This document shows positions 2,750 through 37,892 of a stretch of DNA of 38,107 bases, piece by piece. Both the position numbers and the translations under genes were made by a program. Within the stretch, counting starts at the first letter, position 1; every line of letters starts with the position of its first letter. Origin of the DNA: a bacterium (GTDB taxonomy: Bacteria; Electryoneota; Tariuqbacteria; Tariuqbacterales; JADHWD01); NCBI GenBank assembly GCA_016783645.1, contig JADHWD010000004.1, positions 1-38,107 on the forward strand, in the 5' to 3' direction. Below the pieces are notes generated by a model. That model was not told the DNA's origin. It saw nothing but the letters and a program-made list of their open reading frames with translations, and ran no database searches.

Positions 2750-4753
2750 CTATTTTTTATCAAACAGCGCCTTCGCCGCTTGGGCGATATGTTCGCCGGA
2801 CACCTCGAACTCTTTGATCAATTCCCAAGGCGCGCCGGATTCGCCGAACCGGTCTTTCACACCAATCATGTCAAACAGCGTCCGTTTTTCCAATCCCGCC
2901 CGCATAATAGTGGAAGCGATCCAGTTGCCGAATCCTCCGATTTGATGTTCTTCAGCGGTCACTATGCAGCCGGTTTCAGCGGCGGCGCGGATTACAGCTT
3001 CTTTATCCAGCGGCTTAATAGTGTGAACATTAATTACCCGGGTTTCAATATTGAAATCGTTTTTCAGAATCCAAGCCGCCCGCATCGCTTCCGGCACCAT
3101 AGGCCCGCAGGCTAATATTGATAGATCTTCGTTTTCATTTTTATAATCGGCGCTCAACTTCCATTCAAAAGCGTCCTTGAAATTAGATTTTTCGCCTCTA
3201 AAACGGATGACTGTGGCTTTGCCGTATTCAAAAGGAGTGTCCATATCAGTCACAACCGGTGTCGCTTCCCGGGCGTAGCGGATAAACTTGGGTCCGATAT
3301 GATGAAACAGCAGATATTCGGCGGCGCGGTAAGTTTCATTGACATCGCAGGGGACGGAAATTGTCATATTAGGCAGACCAGTCAATTGGAACAGCTCTTC
3401 TAAAGCTTGATGAGTAGCGCCATCGGGTCCCACTGACACCCCGCCATGCGCTCCGATGACGAATACATTGAATTCGCCGTAACAGACGGTAGTTCTCAAT
3501 TGGTCGAGGTTTCGTCCTGAGGAAAACACTCCGTAAGTCCCTAATACCGGCAGTTTGCCTTCTTTGGCTAATCCCGCCGCAGCGCAGGTGCCGGATTGTT
3601 CGGCGATGCCGACGCTGATGAAACGGGGTTTCCTTTCAGGATGATCGGAGAGGAAATGAGAGATGGTGATAGAGCCTGAGATATCCATCCCGATGCAGAT
3701 CACCCGTTCATCACCGCCTTTATCCTTCAGCATCCTGCCTAATCCCCAGCGTGTGGGATCCATCTCGACTTTCATATTCTCACCTTCATTCCACCAGTAA
3801 TTTCGGGAGAATTTAGGCTGTTTGGCGTCAAGCTTTCCTTCAGCTTCAACCTGATACATCTCCGCCTTTTTCAGCATCTTCTTGTAGTCGATCTTATCTT
3901 CGAGTCCCAGTTCCTTCAGACCTTTCAACATCTCTTCATGATTGGGGACTCTGCCATGCCATCCGGCTATATTCTCCATGAAGGATACGCCTTTGCCCTT
4001 GACAGTGTGTCCTATAATCACAGTGGGCTGGCCTTTGTGAGCTTTCGCCAGTTCCAAGGCATGGACGATCTGCGCCATATCATGCCCGTCGATTTCAATC
4101 ACATTCCAGTTGAAAGCTTCAAATTTAGCGCGCAGGGGATCGATGTTCATCACTTCTTCCACCCAGCCGTCAATCTGCAGGCGGTTTTTATCGACGATGC
4201 AGATGAGGTTATCCAGTTTGAAATGTCCGGCTTCCATCGCCGCTTCCCATATCTGCCCCTCCTGCAATTCGCCGTCGCCGTTGAGGGAGAATACATGGTA
4301 ATCCTTGTTGTCCAGTTTCGCCGCTAAAGCGATTCCCACCCCGATTGACAAACCCTGTCCTAAGGAACCGGTGGATGCTTCCACGCCTTTGAGTTTCAAC
4401 CAATGGGGATGCCCCTGGTAGGGCGCATATAATTTCCGCAGCCGGACTACATCTTCAACATCGAAAAATCCGGCGATTCCCAATCCCAGATAGAGGTTGG
4501 GCGCTTTATGGCCGGTTGACCAGATGATGCGGTCGCGCCCGTCCCATTCGGGATCAGCGGGATCAAGGTTAGCGGAATGCAGATATAAAGCGGCGGTGAA
4601 GTCCATAACGGACATAGTGCCGCCGCCGTGGCCGGAGCCTGCCGCCCGCAGTGAAATCAAATTATAACCCCTCAATAAATTCGCAGATTCCTCCAATTCC
4701 GTTATGGAATAGGATTTTCTGACTTTCATGGTAGTTGAATCTATAAGCGCCAT
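2750..4753 (-). CDS. tkt: Transketolase
   Basis: Full-length transketolase of 667 residues. This cytosolic thiamine-diphosphate enzyme moves two-carbon units between sugar phosphates in the non-oxidative pentose phosphate pathway. The N-terminal half has the invariant histidines in GSGHGGG (H42) and TGHKAP (H82) and the ThDP/metal motif from GDG (159-161) to N190. The C-terminal half has the catalytic glutamate E385 in VGIAEQ. In many anaerobes the two halves are separate genes; here they are one chain. The gene is divergent from butyrate kinase across a 235-bp spacer carrying a perfect 13-bp inverted repeat. Downstream lies the MNT gene, separated by an inverted repeat. Confidence 0.96.
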   Translation of the reverse strand: MALIDSTTMKVRKSYSITELEESANLLRGYNLISLRAAGSGHGGGTMSVMDFTAALYLHSANLDPADPEWDGRDRIIWSTGHKAPNLYLGLGIAGFFDVEDVVRLRKLYAPYQGHPHWLKLKGVEASTGSLGQGLSIGVGIALAAKLDNKDYHVFSLNGDGELQEGQIWEAAMEAGHFKLDNLICIVDKNRLQIDGWVEEVMNIDPLRAKFEAFNWNVIEIDGHDMAQIVHALELAKAHKGQPTVIIGHTVKGKGVSFMENIAGWHGRVPNHEEMLKGLKELGLEDKIDYKKMLKKAEMYQVEAEGKLDAKQPKFSRNYWWNEGENMKVEMDPTRWGLGRMLKDKGGDERVICIGMDISGSITISHFLSDHPERKPRFISVGIAEQSGTCAAAGLAKEGKLPVLGTYGVFSSGRNLDQLRTTVCYGEFNVFVIGAHGGVSVGPDGATHQALEELFQLTGLPNMTISVPCDVNETYRAAEYLLFHHIGPKFIRYAREATPVVTDMDTPFEYGKATVIRFRGEKSNFKDAFEWKLSADYKNENEDLSILACGPMVPEAMRAAWILKNDFNIETRVINVHTIKPLDKEAVIRAAAETGCIVTAEEHQIGGFGNWIASTIMRAGLEKRTLFDMIGVKDRFGESGAPWELIKEFEVSGEHIAQAAKALFDKK

Positions 4754-22865: not shown

Positions 22866-23699
22866 TTAATTATCTGTTCGCCTATCTTTTATATCTCTTC
22901 TATCTATTGGATGTCTTTTTTCTTTTTTCTTAACTTCATAATTATTATACAATTTCTCTGCTATCGCTTCAATAACGATGACTGAAGTTAAATAATCTCG
23001 CTCGCCTAACTCTTCCCATACTTCGTAAATTAATTTAGATAAACTACTTTTATTAAGCGTAAGTATATCGCCATTATTATCAAAATAATCATATTTTTTT
23101 ATTTCATCTTGCAAGATTTCTACTATTTTCATCATATTTAAGACAGCCATATCAAATTCTTCAAACTTTCCACGTCCGGTCGCCTCGGAATAAGTCTTCC
23201 AAAAGCCTTTTCGCATTCGTTGAACTATGGGGGATTTTCTTCTTTCTTCCTTTCTTATATCTGTTTCTATTCGCCTTTGTTTGCTCCTTTTGTCTTCTTC
23301 TGGTAAAAACTCCTTCCCGAATATTGCTAATAGTTTTTTAAATCCCAGTAACATGTTTTCGAAAAAGAATATAGAGTGGTATTCTTTCAATCCTTCAAAT
23401 ATTTCATCAACATCAATTGGATCTAATAATACTGGAATTAATTGATCCTCATCTTTTTTTGTCTTATAAGTGGTAATTTCTCTCGTCAGCCAGTTTGATT
23501 TTATTGAATTTTTAGATATTACGATAATTAATGATTCTGATAAGCTTATTCCTTCATTGATCTCCTCAACAAATTTTGAACCTGGAGGAATATCAAATGG
23601 CGCATACCAAGTTTTAACATGATGATAATTTAAAATTTCCACCAAAAGATCAACAAAATATTGATCATGAGATGAATGGGAAATAAATACTTGGGCCAT
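22866..23699 (-). CDS. TIR-domain protein with uncharacterised helical C-terminus
   Basis: Protein of 277 residues. Residues 1-130 are a TIR domain: VFISHSSHD at the start, the BB-loop DIPPGSKFVEEINEGI, and ISKNSIKSNWLTREI with the putative NADase glutamate E74. Bacterial TIR proteins commonly cleave NAD+ in anti-phage defence, or make NAD-derived signals. The rest (about 135-277) is helical, bounded by two basic motifs, RKEERRK near 150-154 and HPIDRRDIKDRR at the end; I recognise no family. It has a strong AAGGAGG site seven bases before ATG and is visibly A/T-rich compared with its neighbours. It splits ispH from rpsA, which suggests acquisition. Function is inferred, not shown. Confidence 0.85.
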   Translation of the reverse strand: MAQVFISHSSHDQYFVDLLVEILNYHHVKTWYAPFDIPPGSKFVEEINEGISLSESLIIVISKNSIKSNWLTREITTYKTKKDEDQLIPVLLDPIDVDEIFEGLKEYHSIFFFENMLLGFKKLLAIFGKEFLPEEDKRSKQRRIETDIRKEERRKSPIVQRMRKGFWKTYSEATGRGKFEEFDMAVLNMMKIVEILQDEIKKYDYFDNNGDILTLNKSSLSKLIYEVWEELGERDYLTSVIVIEAIAEKLYNNYEVKKKEKRHPIDRRDIKDRRTDN

Positions 23700-30597: not shown

Positions 30598-31650
30598 TTA
30601 AAATTCTTCCACATCTATTCGAGTGTCAAGCAGTAACACTCTTTCGGGACCCCAGCCATCCGGAAGAGGAAATGTTTCAAGGATTTCACCTTCAGGATTA
30701 ATCTTCACAATATGGTCTGAATAAAGGCAACAGACATATACATTACCTTCGCTATCTACAGTCAATCCGGAAGCGCCGATTTCATCTTGTAGTAAAATAG
30801 GATTTTCCGCATCGTTGATAATCTGTTCTGATATGCAGTTATATTTCAGCACAACGGCTCCCTCGCCGGACCACCCGCCGGCGCCCAGATAAACATTTCC
30901 TTCAGCGTCAACCGCTTCATATCCAGGTGAGCCTCCGACAAACTGGGGACTGCCGATGGGTTCAAAGCTTGTCAAGTTCACCCGCCAGATTTCGCCGAAA
31001 GACGACCAGTAATCTCCGATACAAATCACATTCAATTCACCCTGGCTGTCCACGAAGAGAATACCGGGATTGACTCCCACATCTAAGGAATCTTCCAGCG
31101 TGAAAGTAGCGGCATTAATTTTCGCCACCCTGCCCTGCCCGTATACGAAGCTGACCATATCTAAGTTGGAGACGCCGATATAAATTTTACCTTCATGATA
31201 TGTCATCCCCCAGGGACCCAACCCCACGGGAATCTCATCCAGGACAACACCCTGTTGATAATCGACCAGCGTCATAGTGCCGGACTGGAAGTTCAGGATC
31301 GCCAGAGAATCGCCGCCGATGAATTCCATAAAAGCGGGATTGCGGTAAGGACCTAATTCTATGAATTCGGTCCAGGCTCCTCCTCCCTGAATACGCTGCA
31401 AGGTGTTGTCGCCGGAATTGACTATATATAGATAGTCATCGTGATATTTAATTTCCGCCGGGGTGATGCCGGTGAGGAAAACATCGTTGAACACCTCTCC
31501 GGTTTCCAGGTCGATTACGGAAATAGTTTCCGCCAGGCTGTTGACGACATACAGCGCCTGAACGGGCTGGGGGACATCATCCGATTCATCTTTGATGCAG
31601 GAGATGAACGGCAGGATGATAATTAGCATGACAATAATTCTTTTTAACAT
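30598..31650 (-). CDS. BtuG-like surface lipoprotein, YncE-type beta-propeller
   Basis: Lipoprotein of 350 residues. The signal peptide ends in a lipobox with C18 (PFISC). The mature part is a repeat-rich propeller with YVVNSLAETISVIDL, LYIVNSGDNTLQRI and further blades ending near VYVCCLYSDHIVKI. In Bacteroides, BtuG is a YncE-like lipoprotein that binds cobalamin very tightly and hands it to BtuB. Here the gene lies 13 bp after a BtuB-like receptor and downstream of a cobalamin riboswitch, so a BtuG role is a strong inference, although YncE-like propellers are otherwise generic. AAAGGT precedes the ATG. The stop codon lies next to a dispersed palindrome. Confidence 0.82.
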   Translation of the reverse strand: MLKRIIVMLIIILPFISCIKDESDDVPQPVQALYVVNSLAETISVIDLETGEVFNDVFLTGITPAEIKYHDDYLYIVNSGDNTLQRIQGGGAWTEFIELGPYRNPAFMEFIGGDSLAILNFQSGTMTLVDYQQGVVLDEIPVGLGPWGMTYHEGKIYIGVSNLDMVSFVYGQGRVAKINAATFTLEDSLDVGVNPGILFVDSQGELNVICIGDYWSSFGEIWRVNLTSFEPIGSPQFVGGSPGYEAVDAEGNVYLGAGGWSGEGAVVLKYNCISEQIINDAENPILLQDEIGASGLTVDSEGNVYVCCLYSDHIVKINPEGEILETFPLPDGWGPERVLLLDTRIDVEEF

Positions 31651-31663
31651 TTTTTACCTTTCT

Positions 31664-33811
31664 TTAATTAGGCAGATTCAATATTAACATTAGATTATAA
31701 TTTCTTCCCGGCATGGGGTAATCGGAGATGATAGAATATGATTTATCAGTAATATTTTCTATTCTGAATACTGTCTTAAATTCATAATTGTCAACGGAAA
31801 ATTCATGAGCGGCGGAGGCGTCGAACAATGAAACCGCCGGTTCATACTTGGTGTTCGTTTCCAGAATATATCTTTTCGACATATAGCGGTGATTGATGGT
31901 GAAGCTCAGATTGGACAGTATGGTAAATGTGACGAATTCACTAGTTTGGATCTGCGGCTTGAAAGTCAGATAGTTATTATAATAGGTTTTACCTTTATTG
32001 CGGGGATCGGATAGAGTCGCGCTGGCTGATAATGTCACCGGTTTCCCTTCATATTGCATAAAAAGTTCCAATCCCTTGATGAGGGCTAAATCAGAGTTGA
32101 AGGGTTTCCATTGCCGCCGTCCGGCGGAGGTGTAACTCTGCCGCCAGATTATGATATCTTCTATCCGGCGGACGAAATAGACGGATTTCGCATAAATACC
32201 GCTCCCTTTCCATTCTAATCCGAAGTCGTATGTTTCTCCCCGTTCCGGCTGTAAATCCGGGTTAGGAGCCGAGAAGACATTTTCCGCCCAGAAAAGCTGG
32301 TTGAAAGTGGGCAGATTGAAATCGCGGGAATAATCGGTATAGACTGATATTCCCTTTATTAGGAAAGGCGAGTATCTTAAAGAGGCGGCGCTGGATACTA
32401 TATTCCCGGCGTCGGAGTAAAAATCGCTCCTCACGATAGTCGAAAGATGCAAATTTCGATATTTCAGCTTGCGCTGAGCGTAAAAAGCTATATCATCGCG
32501 GATTTCGGTTTGTTCGTAAGCTGTGCTGGTGACTCTGTCACGGCGGGCGAAAATGCCTAAAGTTTCACTTCCCATCCGGTCAGATCTGATCAAATCGGAT
32601 TTGATCTCCCATACCTGGCTGCGATGCCGGGAGGGATTATAGTTATAGATACCGCCGAAAAATATATAGGATTCGTTATCCGTATCGGTCTCGAAATATC
32701 TGAAAGCAAGATCGGCGGCATTTTTATCAATAATCTTTTTAAAATTCATATTGATACCGTCCAGGCGGCGGATTATACGGTCTTTTAGAAAAGGATTCTC
32801 AATTCCGCCGGGTGAACCGCGTTCGCTGGCTTGATGATGGTAACCGGCGTCGAAAATATTACTTCCGGTTTTATAGCTGTATTTCATGAATAAATTATGA
32901 CTGTCGTAATCATCATTGATTCTCTCCTTTTCGATTTCATCCGATGCGGTATAAATGAAATTACCCTCCGATTCTGAACGGTTCAAGGAGATGAAGAGCG
33001 AATGCTTTCCGTAAGCATCTCCGAAATTCATAGTGTATTGCTTGTACCCGTAACTTCCGGTTCCGCAGCTGAGTGATTTTTCGCTGTTTCCGGAAGTATA
33101 TATTTCGACCGCGCCGCCGAGTGAGGAACTTCCTTTAGATAAATCGGAATTGGGATTTACTATAATTTTCTCGACATTACTTAAGGGCACATTCTTCAAA
33201 TCCACCTCTCCGGTGCGGGGATCATTGAGGCGGAAACCGTCCAGATATACCGATACCTGATTGGAATTGGCGCCGCGGATGATGATTTTACTCTCGGAAG
33301 CGCCGCCGCGGTCGAGGATTTGAATATCACCCGACTGCATCAAAAAATTCGATAAATTTCCGGCGCCGCTTCTGATTATATCGTTTTTAGTGTACAGCTT
33401 GACATTTATCCCCTGCCCTTCGACCGTAACCTGCGGTAATTCAATAAAATATGATTTCAATTCCGCATGAATATTGACAGAACCGCCGTTTGTTATTATC
33501 ACTGCGCGGGACTCCGGGAAATAACCTAAGAAGCTTATTTCAATATCATACCTGCCGGCGGGAATATTATCTAAATTAAATCCGCCGGATTCATCGGAAA
33601 CTGTTCCCCATAAAGTTCCGGTGATTTGAATCTGCGCGCCGGATAAAGGTTCGCCGGTTTGGCTGTCAGATACGCTGCCTTGAATTACACCGGCGGCGTG
33701 GAGGGATGATACGCAGAACATCAGTATAATGATAAACGGCAGGTTTTTTCCGAAAGACATTATCAGCCGTTTAAATATACAGCGGGAGTATGAACTTACT
33801 ATGTTTTGCAT
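31664..33811 (-). CDS. TonB-dependent outer-membrane receptor, BtuB-like
   Basis: Protein of 715 residues. The signal peptide is best read from the internal Met18 (coordinate 33760), giving a core FIIILMFCVSSLHA; the first Met is at 33811. Next come a carboxypeptidase-regulatory-like domain (about 42-120), a plug (about 130-240; IIIRGANSNQVSVYLDGFRLND) and a 22-strand-type barrel ending in LILNLPN. Such receptors import siderophores, sugars or vitamin B12 using TonB. B12 is inferred from the riboswitch upstream and the BtuG-like gene 13 bp downstream. A truncated MITE-2 copy separates it from the preceding ECF/barrel gene, but the strand and order suggest one regulon. Confidence 0.87.
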   Translation of the reverse strand: MQNIVSSYSRCIFKRLIMSFGKNLPFIIILMFCVSSLHAAGVIQGSVSDSQTGEPLSGAQIQITGTLWGTVSDESGGFNLDNIPAGRYDIEISFLGYFPESRAVIITNGGSVNIHAELKSYFIELPQVTVEGQGINVKLYTKNDIIRSGAGNLSNFLMQSGDIQILDRGGASESKIIIRGANSNQVSVYLDGFRLNDPRTGEVDLKNVPLSNVEKIIVNPNSDLSKGSSSLGGAVEIYTSGNSEKSLSCGTGSYGYKQYTMNFGDAYGKHSLFISLNRSESEGNFIYTASDEIEKERINDDYDSHNLFMKYSYKTGSNIFDAGYHHQASERGSPGGIENPFLKDRIIRRLDGINMNFKKIIDKNAADLAFRYFETDTDNESYIFFGGIYNYNPSRHRSQVWEIKSDLIRSDRMGSETLGIFARRDRVTSTAYEQTEIRDDIAFYAQRKLKYRNLHLSTIVRSDFYSDAGNIVSSAASLRYSPFLIKGISVYTDYSRDFNLPTFNQLFWAENVFSAPNPDLQPERGETYDFGLEWKGSGIYAKSVYFVRRIEDIIIWRQSYTSAGRRQWKPFNSDLALIKGLELFMQYEGKPVTLSASATLSDPRNKGKTYYNNYLTFKPQIQTSEFVTFTILSNLSFTINHRYMSKRYILETNTKYEPAVSLFDASAAHEFSVDNYEFKTVFRIENITDKSYSIISDYPMPGRNYNLMLILNLPN

Positions 33812-33835: not shown

Positions 33836-34235
33836 GGTAGTGTCCCTATATAGTTGTTTTATAGCATTTAATTCGATATTATGCTGATTCGAAAATAAAA
33901 AAATGGTAGGTCGAGGGCTTGTCCCCCGACAAATTGTGCGGGGGGATAAACCCCCATAAGCGTTTAATCAAGATAAAAATCACATGATGTAGGGGCGAAG
34001 CATTTTAGGGTAACAATAATAATATCAATTACTTGTAAAAATGCTTCGCCCTAGCAGGATGCATATTCAAATTTAGATAGGGGCGGATGCCGTCCATCCC
34101 TGCAAGTCATCCCACATTTGTAGGGGCGGGGTTCCCCCGCCCTGATTTAAACGGATATTTTTGGGCGCGGAAACCGCGCCCCTACATCATGTGTTTTATA
34201 CCTTATTTAAGCGCTTATGGGGTACTAAGGGGGAT
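33836..34235. mobile_element. Truncated MITE family 2 copy with further repeats
   Basis: The left end GGTAGTGTCCCTATATA and the following ~220 bp match the complete element at 36941-37240 in reverse: the GGTCGAGGGCTTGTCCCCCG segment, CCCCATAAGCG, and the GGGGCGAAGCAT hairpin. At about 34078-34190 a different GC-rich pair of hairpins is inserted (GGGGCGGGGTTCC and GGGCGCGGAAACC). The right terminal repeat is lost. It fills the 498-bp gap between the two receptor genes; no gene is seen. Confidence 0.75.
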
Positions 34236-34309
34236 TAATTCCTTGATCAAATTTCCTGAAAGACAATTTTAAATGTCGTTTATTCTAAATTCTCAATTCT
34301 AAATTTTTC

Positions 34310-36613
34310 TTAGTCCCAAAACACCCAATTCACTCCCCATACCTCCTCCTTGTGAATCATGCTGTATCCGGGAATTATATCGTATTTCCAGGAGAAGATA
34401 TTTTCCAGTCCCCAGAAGATAGAGAAATCTTTAATTTTAAAAGTGAAACGGGCGCCCCAGATATTATCATCCCACAGTTTTTCATAGCCCCCGTTAATCC
34501 TGCCCTCCCGCGCGCCGATATATCTCCCATGAAAGTCGATGACATATTCTAGGTCATCAAAGAAGGCTTTTCCCCGTTTGTCCAGCCAGATTTTACCTTC
34601 GGAATCGGGGATGAACTGTTCATCTTCCGATGAATTTTGATATGTATAGACTGTGCGCAGTCCAAATCCCCGCCATCGGCCCAGCGTCAATTGCAATTCG
34701 ATGCCTTGAGTCTCCCAAACGCCGAAATTATCCCAATAAGCTATGATGGGATCAGTGATTCCGATTTTTATCCGATTCACACATTGTTTATAGAATAGAG
34801 AAGGGCGCAGCTCAACTTTGGGAGACATATTCAATAATCCGTACATCCGGGCGCAATAATGGGAGTCCGCAGTGAAATCCGAAGGATTTGTTAAGACCGC
34901 TTCAGACGGAACAAGCGCATAATCGGAACCGGGGAGAAATACTTCATCCGCTTGGTAGCCGTATGCATATTTAATCATATCCGGCGGCGATTGTTTAGCG
35001 CTGAAACTGACCGCCAGCCAGTCTTTATTATTCAGATTGTATTTCAGAGCCAGACAGCCGGATTGATAAACTTCATCGCGGTATTCAATCCCTGCGGCTC
35101 CTGAAAACATAAGGCGGTTATCGATCGGCTTTTCTATTGCGAGATTAAACCGCGCCCATCCCTGTTCTCTGTGAAACACATCAGCTAATCCGGCTTTATA
35201 CCATTCCAGGTAGAGGGTGGGAATTATCCGGAATCCTTTCCACTTTCTGGTCTGATTGACCGCGAAGGAATAGCCGAATTCGGTATTATTCAGGTGGTAA
35301 AAATATCCTTCATGCAGTTTAAAATAGTGAAGAACCGCTTCCGTTTTAGAAGTTTTTCTTTGATAATTTGCGGTTAAAAAGAGGTCGGTCCGGCGGAGCA
35401 GGCGGCGGTCATTAGTGAAAGTAATTTTAGCGTCGTTGTTAGTTTTCATGAATTCGAAATTCAGCGTGAGATTATTATATGGATTCCAATGAAAAGCTCC
35501 GCGGAAGTTCTCACTCTTGACACCGCTGTTATCGAGTCGTCCGTTGAATTCGCTGACCTGTCCGCCGAATTGGAATCCCGCATTATGCCGCAGTCTTTGC
35601 GCTGTTATGAAATCAACTACGCCTAAAGCGTAATAGCCGTCATGATATTTGATGCGGGTGTAGGGAGTGTCTGGATCTACCGTGAATGGATGAAATTCGA
35701 GGACTCCGTTAGGATTGATGAATCCGGAACTTTGTTCCGATAAATTAATTTCCTTCAAATATCCCGGCGGTAAAGCGTTGAAATCCATCATGCCATGCAG
35801 GCGGGAATTCAAAGAGATTCCGTGAAGGAGCGCTGCGGATTGCCCGGCTTCGTGAAATATATAGGAAGGCTGGCAGAACAGCGCCAAATCGTAGTGATAA
35901 AAACCGGGCATTGCGCAGATTATATCGGCTAAATCCTCATGATTATAATACCGCCACTCTTTTTCTGATATTTGATACACGGGTTCGGAAGCGAAAGTAT
36001 TTTCATCGGGTATTATCATTGTCAATAAAATTAGTCCAGCTATAGCGATGACCGGCGTCATCTTTTTTAAATATGTGTACGCCGGCGGGAGTACCAGGGC
36101 GAAAATAAGGGTGTTAACGCCCAGATGCAGGATTGCGAAGGGGATACCCATCTTCAAGGTAGTGAGCGTCTGCTCCCAGCCGAAACCGGCGGAAACGGGA
36201 AAACTCATGGTAGTCCAAAAATCATAATTCAATGTAATCAAGAAACCTGATATCCCAAAAATGATTATTCTTTTCGCCGCTATGGAATTTTCAATGATTC
36301 CAGCCAAAGCTCCTCCACAGGCTCCCGCTATCGCCATGCTGAATAATTGAGCGATCAACAATGGGGGGAAGGATAATCCCATAGGATTCAGCGCGGTGAA
36401 GAGGAATTCCGCTATCAAACCCACGAGTATTCCTCGAACGATTCCCAGCAATAATCCTGACAGGAATATCGCCGCGGTGATCAATTCGATGTTGGGAACC
36501 GCCACCAGCAAAAATCCCAGTCCGACTGATGCGGCGGCGCATAATCCGGTTAAAATATTTAATTTCAACCGCTTACGGGATATGTCGGACTCTGTTCGAT
36601 AATCATTTTCCAT
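34310..36613 (-). CDS. Fusion: ECF-type S component + signal-like helix + outer-membrane plug/barrel
   Basis: Protein of 767 residues with two halves meant for different membranes. Residues ~17-180 hold about six hydrophobic helices, with FTALNPMGLSFPPLLIAQLF resembling ECF-transporter S components. KK at 183-184 and a hydrophobic stretch to about 202, ending TFA-SEP (205-211), look like a signal peptide. From ~215 a shortened TonB-receptor plug follows (DLADIICAMPGFYHYD, LLHGISLNSRLHG) and then an amphipathic barrel to the C-terminal WVFWD. Six helices leave residue 184 in the cytoplasm, the correct side for a signal peptide. Met185 might be an internal start, but it has no clear Shine-Dalgarno sequence. 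It is the first gene after the cobalamin riboswitch, so B12 is the likely substrate. Confidence 0.8.
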   Translation of the reverse strand: MENDYRTESDISRKRLKLNILTGLCAAASVGLGFLLVAVPNIELITAAIFLSGLLLGIVRGILVGLIAEFLFTALNPMGLSFPPLLIAQLFSMAIAGACGGALAGIIENSIAAKRIIIFGISGFLITLNYDFWTTMSFPVSAGFGWEQTLTTLKMGIPFAILHLGVNTLIFALVLPPAYTYLKKMTPVIAIAGLILLTMIIPDENTFASEPVYQISEKEWRYYNHEDLADIICAMPGFYHYDLALFCQPSYIFHEAGQSAALLHGISLNSRLHGMMDFNALPPGYLKEINLSEQSSGFINPNGVLEFHPFTVDPDTPYTRIKYHDGYYALGVVDFITAQRLRHNAGFQFGGQVSEFNGRLDNSGVKSENFRGAFHWNPYNNLTLNFEFMKTNNDAKITFTNDRRLLRRTDLFLTANYQRKTSKTEAVLHYFKLHEGYFYHLNNTEFGYSFAVNQTRKWKGFRIIPTLYLEWYKAGLADVFHREQGWARFNLAIEKPIDNRLMFSGAAGIEYRDEVYQSGCLALKYNLNNKDWLAVSFSAKQSPPDMIKYAYGYQADEVFLPGSDYALVPSEAVLTNPSDFTADSHYCARMYGLLNMSPKVELRPSLFYKQCVNRIKIGITDPIIAYWDNFGVWETQGIELQLTLGRWRGFGLRTVYTYQNSSEDEQFIPDSEGKIWLDKRGKAFFDDLEYVIDFHGRYIGAREGRINGGYEKLWDDNIWGARFTFKIKDFSIFWGLENIFSWKYDIIPGYSMIHKEEVWGVNWVFWD

Positions 36614-36654
36614 GATAAACGCTCACAAAGGATATGTAATATTTGACTTTAGGT

Positions 36655-36696
36655 TTTGGGCTTTGGGCTTTGGGCTTTGGGCTTTGGGCTTTGGAT
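36655..36696. repeat. 7-bp tandem repeat TTTGGGC
   Basis: Five perfect heptamers and one degenerate unit lie just upstream of the ECF/barrel fusion gene; a related GGTTAA array follows at 36879-36898. They lie in the mRNA leader between the riboswitch and its gene. Confidence 0.9.
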
Positions 36697-36940: not shown

Positions 36941-37240
36941 GGTAGTGTCCTTATATAATTGTCCGGGTAGGCGGGGGGTTTATCCCCCATAAGCGCTTGA
37001 ATAAGCGGAATTGGATGTGCTTATCAGGGCGAAGCATTTTTTGCAAGTGTTTGATATTTTGCTTGTTACACTAAAATGCTTCGCCCCTACATTCCGTGAA
37101 AAATGTCTTAATTAAGCGCTTATGGGTTTATCCCCCCGCACAATTTGTCGGGGGACAAGCCCCCGACCTACCATTTTCTGATTTTCTAATTAGCAAAAAA
37201 TCGAATTTACGATGTAAAACAACGTTATAGGGACACTACC
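36941..37240. mobile_element. MITE family 2, complete copy in the cobalamin leader
   Basis: The 300-bp element has terminal inverted repeats GGTAGTGTCC (36941-36950) and GGACACTACC (37231-37240); the TATA beyond also matches. A perfect 8-bp target duplication CAATTTTC lies at 36933-36940 and 37241-37248. Inside, TTAAGCGCTTATGGGTTTAT and GGGGCGAAGCAT.../...ATGCTTCGCCCC palindromes are visible and no gene is present. Partial relatives lie at 33836 and 18503. The mobilising transposase is unknown. Confidence 0.9.
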
Positions 37241-37300: not shown

Positions 37301-37333
37301 ATAATAAAAATGCCCCTCCGATTGGAGGGGCAA
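37301..37333 (-). terminator. Rho-independent terminator of the cobalamin riboswitch
   Basis: On the minus strand a perfect 8-bp stem GCCCCTCC/GGAGGGGC with a 4-base loop (37312-37331) is followed by ATTTTTATTATATT. It lies ~40 bases after the aptamer. An upstream CCTCCGAGGG segment (near 37361) could pair with CGGAGGGG as an antiterminator, which fits a transcription-attenuation switch. Confidence 0.9.
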
Positions 37334-37538: not shown

Positions 37539-37892
37539 TTATTTTGCTCGATGGAGCGCGTCTTTTTCCTTGATTCTGGCGGCTTTACCGCGCAGATTTC
37601 TCAGATAAAACAACTTAGCGCGTCTAACTTTACCCTGGCGCAGCCGTTCGATTTTCACGATATTGGGAGAATGCAGAGGGAAAATTCTTTCCACTCCGAT
37701 ACCGGAGGAAATTTTACGGGCGATGAATGTTTCATTCAATCCCGACCCTCTGCGCGATATTACGACTCCCTGGAAAATCTGGATTCGCTCTTTATCGCCT
37801 TCCTTCACCAAATAATGCACATCGATGGTATCACCCGGCGCAAAATCCGGGATTTCCTTCAACTGTTCAGGTATTATTCTTGATAAATCCAT
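37539..37892 (-). CDS. rplS: Ribosomal protein L19
   Basis: Protein of 117 residues, standard length, at the 30S-50S interface of the ribosome. The family pattern [20 protein letters not shown], then [31 protein letters not shown] and [18 protein letters not shown] is complete. GAGG lies ten bases before the ATG. The usual rpsP-rimM-trmD partners would lie to the right, outside the window. The cobalamin riboswitch starts right behind the stop. Confidence 0.96.

Follow-up and report, generated by a model that had tools for sequence, protein, structure and literature searches.

For an uptake route that crosses two membranes, the components of the inner and of the outer membrane are thought to be made as separate proteins. 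A precursor that unites two products and is cut apart is FbcH, the cytochrome b/c1 precursor of Bradyrhizobium, in which an internal signal peptide, where signal peptidase cuts, comes after a polytopic inner-membrane protein; viral polyproteins are likewise cut by signal peptidase. On the side of the outer membrane, BtuB of E. coli and Bacteroides is a plug-plus-barrel receptor that has a gene to itself and an N-terminal signal peptide of its own. For the inner membrane, the closest solved sequence relative of the protein described here is CbrT, the S component of ECF-CbrT of Lactobacillus delbrueckii (PDB 6FNP), a B12-specific transporter (PMC5997447); it requires an ECF module, and differs from the present case in having its own gene, in occurring in a Gram-positive organism without an outer membrane, and in not being fused to a receptor. 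BtuM and other S components co-localised with btuB are inner-membrane B12 importers of the S-component type in Gram-negative bacteria, recognised through their btuB neighbourhood, like the importer proposed here; BtuM differs in being a separate gene, in its cysteine ligand and in functioning without an ECF module (PMC6072759). Lastly, Bacteroides loci pair the BtuB receptor with BtuG, a beta-propeller-type surface lipoprotein, for B12, and no receptor-fused CbrT-like S component is described there (PMC10404256, PMC6143338).

The DNA analysed here (the window) is a stretch of 38,107 nucleotides from an uncultured bacterium, in which one reading frame encodes an S component and a receptor barrel together. 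The first-pass annotation of this DNA, made from the sequence alone, knew of no described B12 transporter of such architecture, and we likewise found no description of an S component fused to a TonB receptor in the open-access literature, subscription papers and preprints being outside the scope of the search; TonB and the outer membrane are both absent from a study of the S-component fold that covers fused domains (PMC11109136). The parts are known, their joining is undescribed in the open-access papers found, and the main interest lies in its recurrence across lineages.

One frame with two membrane-protein folds

The frame occupies the minus strand, from an ATG at 36613 to a stop codon ending at 34310, and its 767 codons are uninterrupted (Table 1). 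The single open frame claimed in the first-pass annotation was thus borne out, and its coordinates were correct, although the minus strand had been left unmentioned.

Table 1. Features of the fused gene and its surroundings, in window coordinates
Feature	Position	Strand	Basis or remark
Fused ORF: S component, signal peptide, plug and barrel	34310..36613	-	767 aa; full-length AlphaFold pLDDT 87.2
ECF S-component domain (aa 10-184), CbrT-like, with six helices; both termini predicted to be cytoplasmic from positive-inside charges	36062..36586	-	profile match 6fnp_A E=2.1e-9; pLDDT 93.5; Foldseek TmRibU prob 1.00
A6 run directly before the M185 ATG	36063..36068	-	sequence; junction survey of relatives
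Signal-peptide-like helix (aa 185-208), preceded by K183 K184; predicted cut TFA/S between aa 208/209	35990..36061	-	sequence and comparison with relatives
Short TonB-receptor-type plug (about aa 212-285)	35759..35980	-	full-length model, Foldseek
BtuB-like outer-membrane beta-barrel (about aa 286-765, about 22 strands)	34319..35758	-	Foldseek BtuB 3rgn/1nqe E~2e-28; profile matches BtuB 1nqe, 8blw
Cobalamin riboswitch RF00174	37360..37535	-	76.3 bits; upstream of fused gene, same strand
Terminator-like hairpin GCCCCTCC-aat-CGGAGGGGC + ATTTTTATT	37304..37331	-	read from sequence; 3' of riboswitch
rplS (ribosomal protein L19), conserved upstream neighbour	37539..37892	-	domain match; synteny
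Stand-alone BtuB-type TonB-dependent receptor (CarboxypepD_reg, plug, barrel)	31664..33811	-	downstream of fused gene
YVTN beta-propeller with lipobox-like LPFISC, BtuG-like in kind	30598..31650	-	downstream of fused gene

Searches with the single sequence of the S half gave two weak matches, PF07155 at E=1.4e-4 (under the Pfam cutoff) and 6fnp_A at E=0.0095; the Pfam ECF_trnsprt cutoff that it misses is passed by a fused relative, L161 (L and G numbers are our labels for loci and genomes). A profile of 27 homologues, when used instead, matched CbrT (6fnp_A) at E=2.1e-9 and no other PDB entry at E<=0.01. AlphaFold modelled residues 1-184 as six helices with a pLDDT of 93.5, and the best PDB matches of this model in Foldseek were ECF S components (probability 1.00, with E-values >=0.03). 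The S component proposed for the first 184 residues is therefore supported by kinship in the profile search and by a six-helix fold that is present both in the model and in its structural matches. An AxxxA motif in helix 1 of S components is a known contact with EcfT. The corresponding columns of this family are A23 (90%) and A27, and the window carries G23xxxA27, in which the first alanine is replaced and a small residue kept. The invariant columns of the 27 S sequences are without cysteine, and identification of the S half as BtuM was dropped because the cobalt-ligand cysteine is missing from them. The invariant polar residues of the S family, namely N41, E43, H163 and N167 (window 36062-36613), are candidate corrinoid contacts, with H163 a possible axial ligand.

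No Pfam match was obtained for residues 209-767. In the full-length AlphaFold model (pLDDT 87.2), however, they form a plug followed by about 22 strands; the top PDB matches of this model in Foldseek were E. coli BtuB (E=2e-28, TM 0.86 on the target), and a profile of the barrel family matched BtuB and Bacteroides BtuB1 chains at about 1e-13. The shortened TonB-receptor plug and beta-barrel that had been read from the sequence were thus modelled as such, with the barrel in place after residue 215 and BtuB as the best fold match. The window's barrel shares with BtuB the plug-plus-barrel fold and the B12 context, and differs in its shorter plug and in lying under Pfam detection. The riboswitch and the neighbouring genes suggest that the barrel binds B12; TonB is encoded in the window's genome.

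A conserved operon with a cobalamin riboswitch

The link to B12 was upheld by the surroundings of the frame, which has a cobalamin riboswitch upstream and both a BtuB-type receptor and a BtuG-like propeller lipoprotein downstream, the latter two recalling the Bacteroides BtuB-BtuG loci. The hairpin that follows the riboswitch is its probable expression platform, as read from the sequence. The order rplS, riboswitch, S component, barrel, BtuB and propeller recurs across the phylum: the S gene lies directly after rplS in 36 of the 75 loci surveyed (nearly all of those from the phylum), and in the relatives a BtuB gene often follows S at about +2.4 kb, with the propeller further on at about +4.5 kb. 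At least 11 split relatives (L033, L037, L039, L036, L042, L047, L050, L052, L058, L062 and L065) have the riboswitch directly 5' of S, and it is also found upstream of the fused genes L191-193; no cobalamin riboswitch was found near the fused genes L225, L226, L113 and L161. Since homologues of the two halves adjoin in nearly every relative, the pairing of S component and barrel exceeds chance.

CbiQ/EcfT was found in 33 of the 39 phylum genomes, and the window's genome (G000) has three copies, of which one lies beside truA and another belongs to a cbiM–EcfT–ATPase set. A search of the phylum genomes for a BtuC-type permease gave nothing convincing: the FecCD matches, at <=47 bits and mostly about 30, were partial and were rejected as BtuC. 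Because these matches are both weak and partial, a BtuC-type permease seems to be missing, and with EcfT present, the pathway that we propose would lead from the receptor to the S component and on to the ECF module. These results assign a likely B12 role to a widespread gene pair, a CbrT-like S component with a Pfam-invisible BtuB-like barrel, in several candidate phyla, including the one in which the permease was sought.

A few further features of these loci were observed. At L230 (2909-7683), a ferredoxin-domain protein adjoins the cbiM-EcfT-ATPase set; by eye only, it has the look of a RACo-type, corrinoid-activating protein, which suggests corrinoid-dependent methyl transfer. The fused gene of the window is flanked by a tandem array of seven CTTTGGG units (36647-36694) and by intergenic repeats shared between 33900-34300 and 36960-37200; the repeats stretch the gap from rplS to S to about 1.3 kb (start to start), versus about 0.55 kb in relatives. 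Amid housekeeping genes of the window, a TIR-domain protein (PF13676, E=1e-20) at 22866-23699 is possibly a defence gene.

Split and fused relatives

All 39 available genomes of the phylum were searched, and 37 of them matched; in every relative examined there, S component and barrel are two genes, most often with an overlap of one nucleotide, the window's genome alone being fused. The 104 distinct S loci surveyed have as their commonest junction a one-nucleotide overlap of the barrel start with the S stop (45 loci); 11 others overlap by 4-14 nucleotides, and in 18 the barrel starts within 30 nucleotides. Short overlaps of this kind support termination-reinitiation and are enriched in gene pairs that encode subunits (PMC10666635). 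Open frames of 813-846 aa in G024, G012 and G020 were rejected as fusions on account of a stop codon at the junction. In L072 (near 1745-1960) and L045 (near 3600-3700), the signal peptide of the barrel has no ATG, GTG or TTG nearby; these two barrels possibly use a rare start (CTG or ATT) that overlaps the S stop, or else frameshifting. Judged from these comparisons of sequence, the window's gene represents, in fused form, a B12-uptake operon that is widespread as two genes.

The junction in the window differs from the commonest one by a single base. Without one A of the A6 run, the sequence would read TTA AAA AGA TGA, with a stop codon that overlaps the M185 ATG by the usual one nucleotide. 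Since one base thus decides between split and fused, it may be either the origin of the fusion or the cause of an artefact; a very recent mutation or, alternatively, an error may underlie the fused frame. The genes would in the latter case truly be split by an ATGA overlap, with a surplus A added in sequencing or assembly, as would fit the split state of every relative in the phylum, the recreation of their commonest junction by loss of one A, and the source of the window, a single draft MAG of 221 contigs. We regard such an error as unlikely, though it deserves to be taken seriously. The window's other Pfam-checked genes show no sign of a frameshift, and the same architecture occurs in seven other genomes. 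In addition, among the split barrels a K or R precedes the hydrophobic core in 70 of 71, whereas a window peptide begun at M185 would have none, as in only one of those 71 relatives. This also implies that the two lysines contributed by the fusion complete the signal peptide. Overall, the fusion in the window's copy is likely to be real, and we are more confident still of the class.

The other fusions came from a survey of genome contigs, in which a single-protein query found nothing and an alignment of S components, used as query, found homologues. An initial view of the fusion as peculiar to the window was abandoned, as seven further genomes carry fusions of S component, signal peptide and receptor; the eight loci are the window, L097 (=L226), L161, L105 (=L225), L113, L191, L192 and L193, of which L113 and L193 end at contig ends. 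The first-pass annotation had counted consistently split homologues with a sequencing error here as evidence against its reading: the homologues in the phylum are indeed split, and an error of one base in the A6 run would mimic the fusion, but the seven fusions elsewhere make the class real without proving the window's copy.

On a tree of S domains, the fused loci fall in about five places (the fewest changes are 5, and the well-supported branches alone force 2), and the fusion seems, from these sequences, to have arisen separately several times; the survey suggests that fusions arise repeatedly out of short gene overlaps. This sporadic distribution, together with the second BtuB-type receptor that adjoins in the window, would also suit a neutral or damaged read-through, in which the stop codon of a redundant locus was lost and the product kept by chance with one half defunct. 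Such a read-through is nonetheless very improbable, as both halves are intact and were modelled with good confidence, and as the fusion has outlasted the far divergence of L226 and L161. These two loci share the linker KIDYFKPRL, although their S domains are 46% and their barrels 33% identical, which indicates that the fusion has persisted. L161 moreover passes the Pfam cutoffs for both ECF_trnsprt and Plug in its single frame. The trio at L191 (3802-6645), L192 (414-3224) and L193 (5158-6465), from related genomes, has S in frame with a different, full-size BtuB (CarboxypepD_reg); between L191 and L192, the 18-codon linker has 2 synonymous and 4 nonsynonymous codon differences, too few to judge selection.

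Proposed sorting to two membranes

One chain that fuses an inner-membrane importer with an outer-membrane receptor probably must be cut in two. The linker consists of K183 K184, then M185-TPVIAIAGLILLTMIIPDENTFA208, followed by S209EP; it contains the most hydrophobic 15-mer of the S-plus-linker stretch, and the KK and hydrophobic stretch ending TFA-SEP are as had been described. In the full-length model, residues 196-207 are disordered or of very low confidence, as is expected of a flexible cleavage region. In the fused sequences compared, a hydrophobic core is preceded by a K or R and followed by a short polar stretch that holds a plausible cleavage site, and a similar signal-peptide-like element opens the stand-alone barrel genes of relatives. 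Clusters of K and R occur at the N-terminus, at R60, near K113/R114 and at K183/K184, and the helices of the model lie between them. This pattern fits a six-helix part with both termini inside; a seventh helix would then run outwards and place the cut site in the periplasm, and the placement of the linker on the correct side of the membrane for signal peptidase thus agrees with both the charges and the model. The predicted signal peptide, with its n, h and c regions, follows an even number of helices, as in an FbcH-like polyprotein. The likeness to FbcH lies in the polytopic inner-membrane part and the internal signal peptide; the difference is that the FbcH products share one inner-membrane complex, whereas the second half here is an outer-membrane barrel by its modelled fold.

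On balance, we favour a fused two-gene B12 operon whose product is a polyprotein that signal peptidase I probably divides into an S component for the inner membrane and a receptor for the outer one. The first six helices of the one translation product would form a CbrT-like ECF S component in the inner membrane. The hydrophobic stretch after them, preceded by K183 K184 in the cytoplasm, would act as an internal signal peptide that carries the remainder to the periplasm. Signal peptidase I would cut after A208 and free a BtuB-like receptor of 559 residues for the outer membrane; unless trimmed away, the signal peptide would stay with the S half as its seventh helix. B12 would then pass the outer-membrane receptor or receptors and next the S component, for which a shared EcfT/EcfA module would supply the drive; with B12 in ample supply, the riboswitch would turn the operon off. 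Signal peptidase I (PF10502) was not found in the window's genome, which is 77.6% complete, and the only order-mate of that genome has a weak partial match; it was found in all 27 high-quality genomes of the phylum.

Two other fates of the fused frame were weighed against cleavage. An uncut chain, with the S component tied to the barrel as a through-channel spanning the envelope, could be imagined for L226, in which the stretch of about 150 residues between signal helix and plug could bridge the periplasm. With only about 15 residues between helix and plug, the window's protein falls far short of this distance, and it has a signal-peptidase-like site, so that an uncut form is hardly credible. 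Alternatively, the frame may be truly fused and the receptor made mainly from an internal start, yielding two products without proteolysis and the fused chain as a minor one. The window does have an in-frame ATG (M185), and in L191-193 the signal peptide comes after an internal ATG that has GGAGG five nucleotides before it; in these three, the receptor could possibly also start alone and give dual products. However, M185 of the window has no Shine-Dalgarno sequence before it and no stop codon beside it, by which the coupling of termination and reinitiation is lost, and L226, L161, L225 and L113 have no Shine-Dalgarno start codon that would retain a K/R-bearing n-region. In the absence of a usable internal start, these four fusions look obligate from their sequences, and we consider internal initiation quite unlikely as the main source of the receptor.

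If the proposed cleavage is true, one chain that has to be cut to populate both membranes poses an unusual sorting problem. The broader reading, to which we give an even chance, is that these are recurrently evolved two-compartment polyproteins, in which a B12 S component and its receptor are made as one chain, sorted by signal peptidase and supplied at a fixed 1:1 ratio, and in which the seventh helix may alter or anchor the S half. Such a helix might hinder toppling of the S component or its contact with EcfT.
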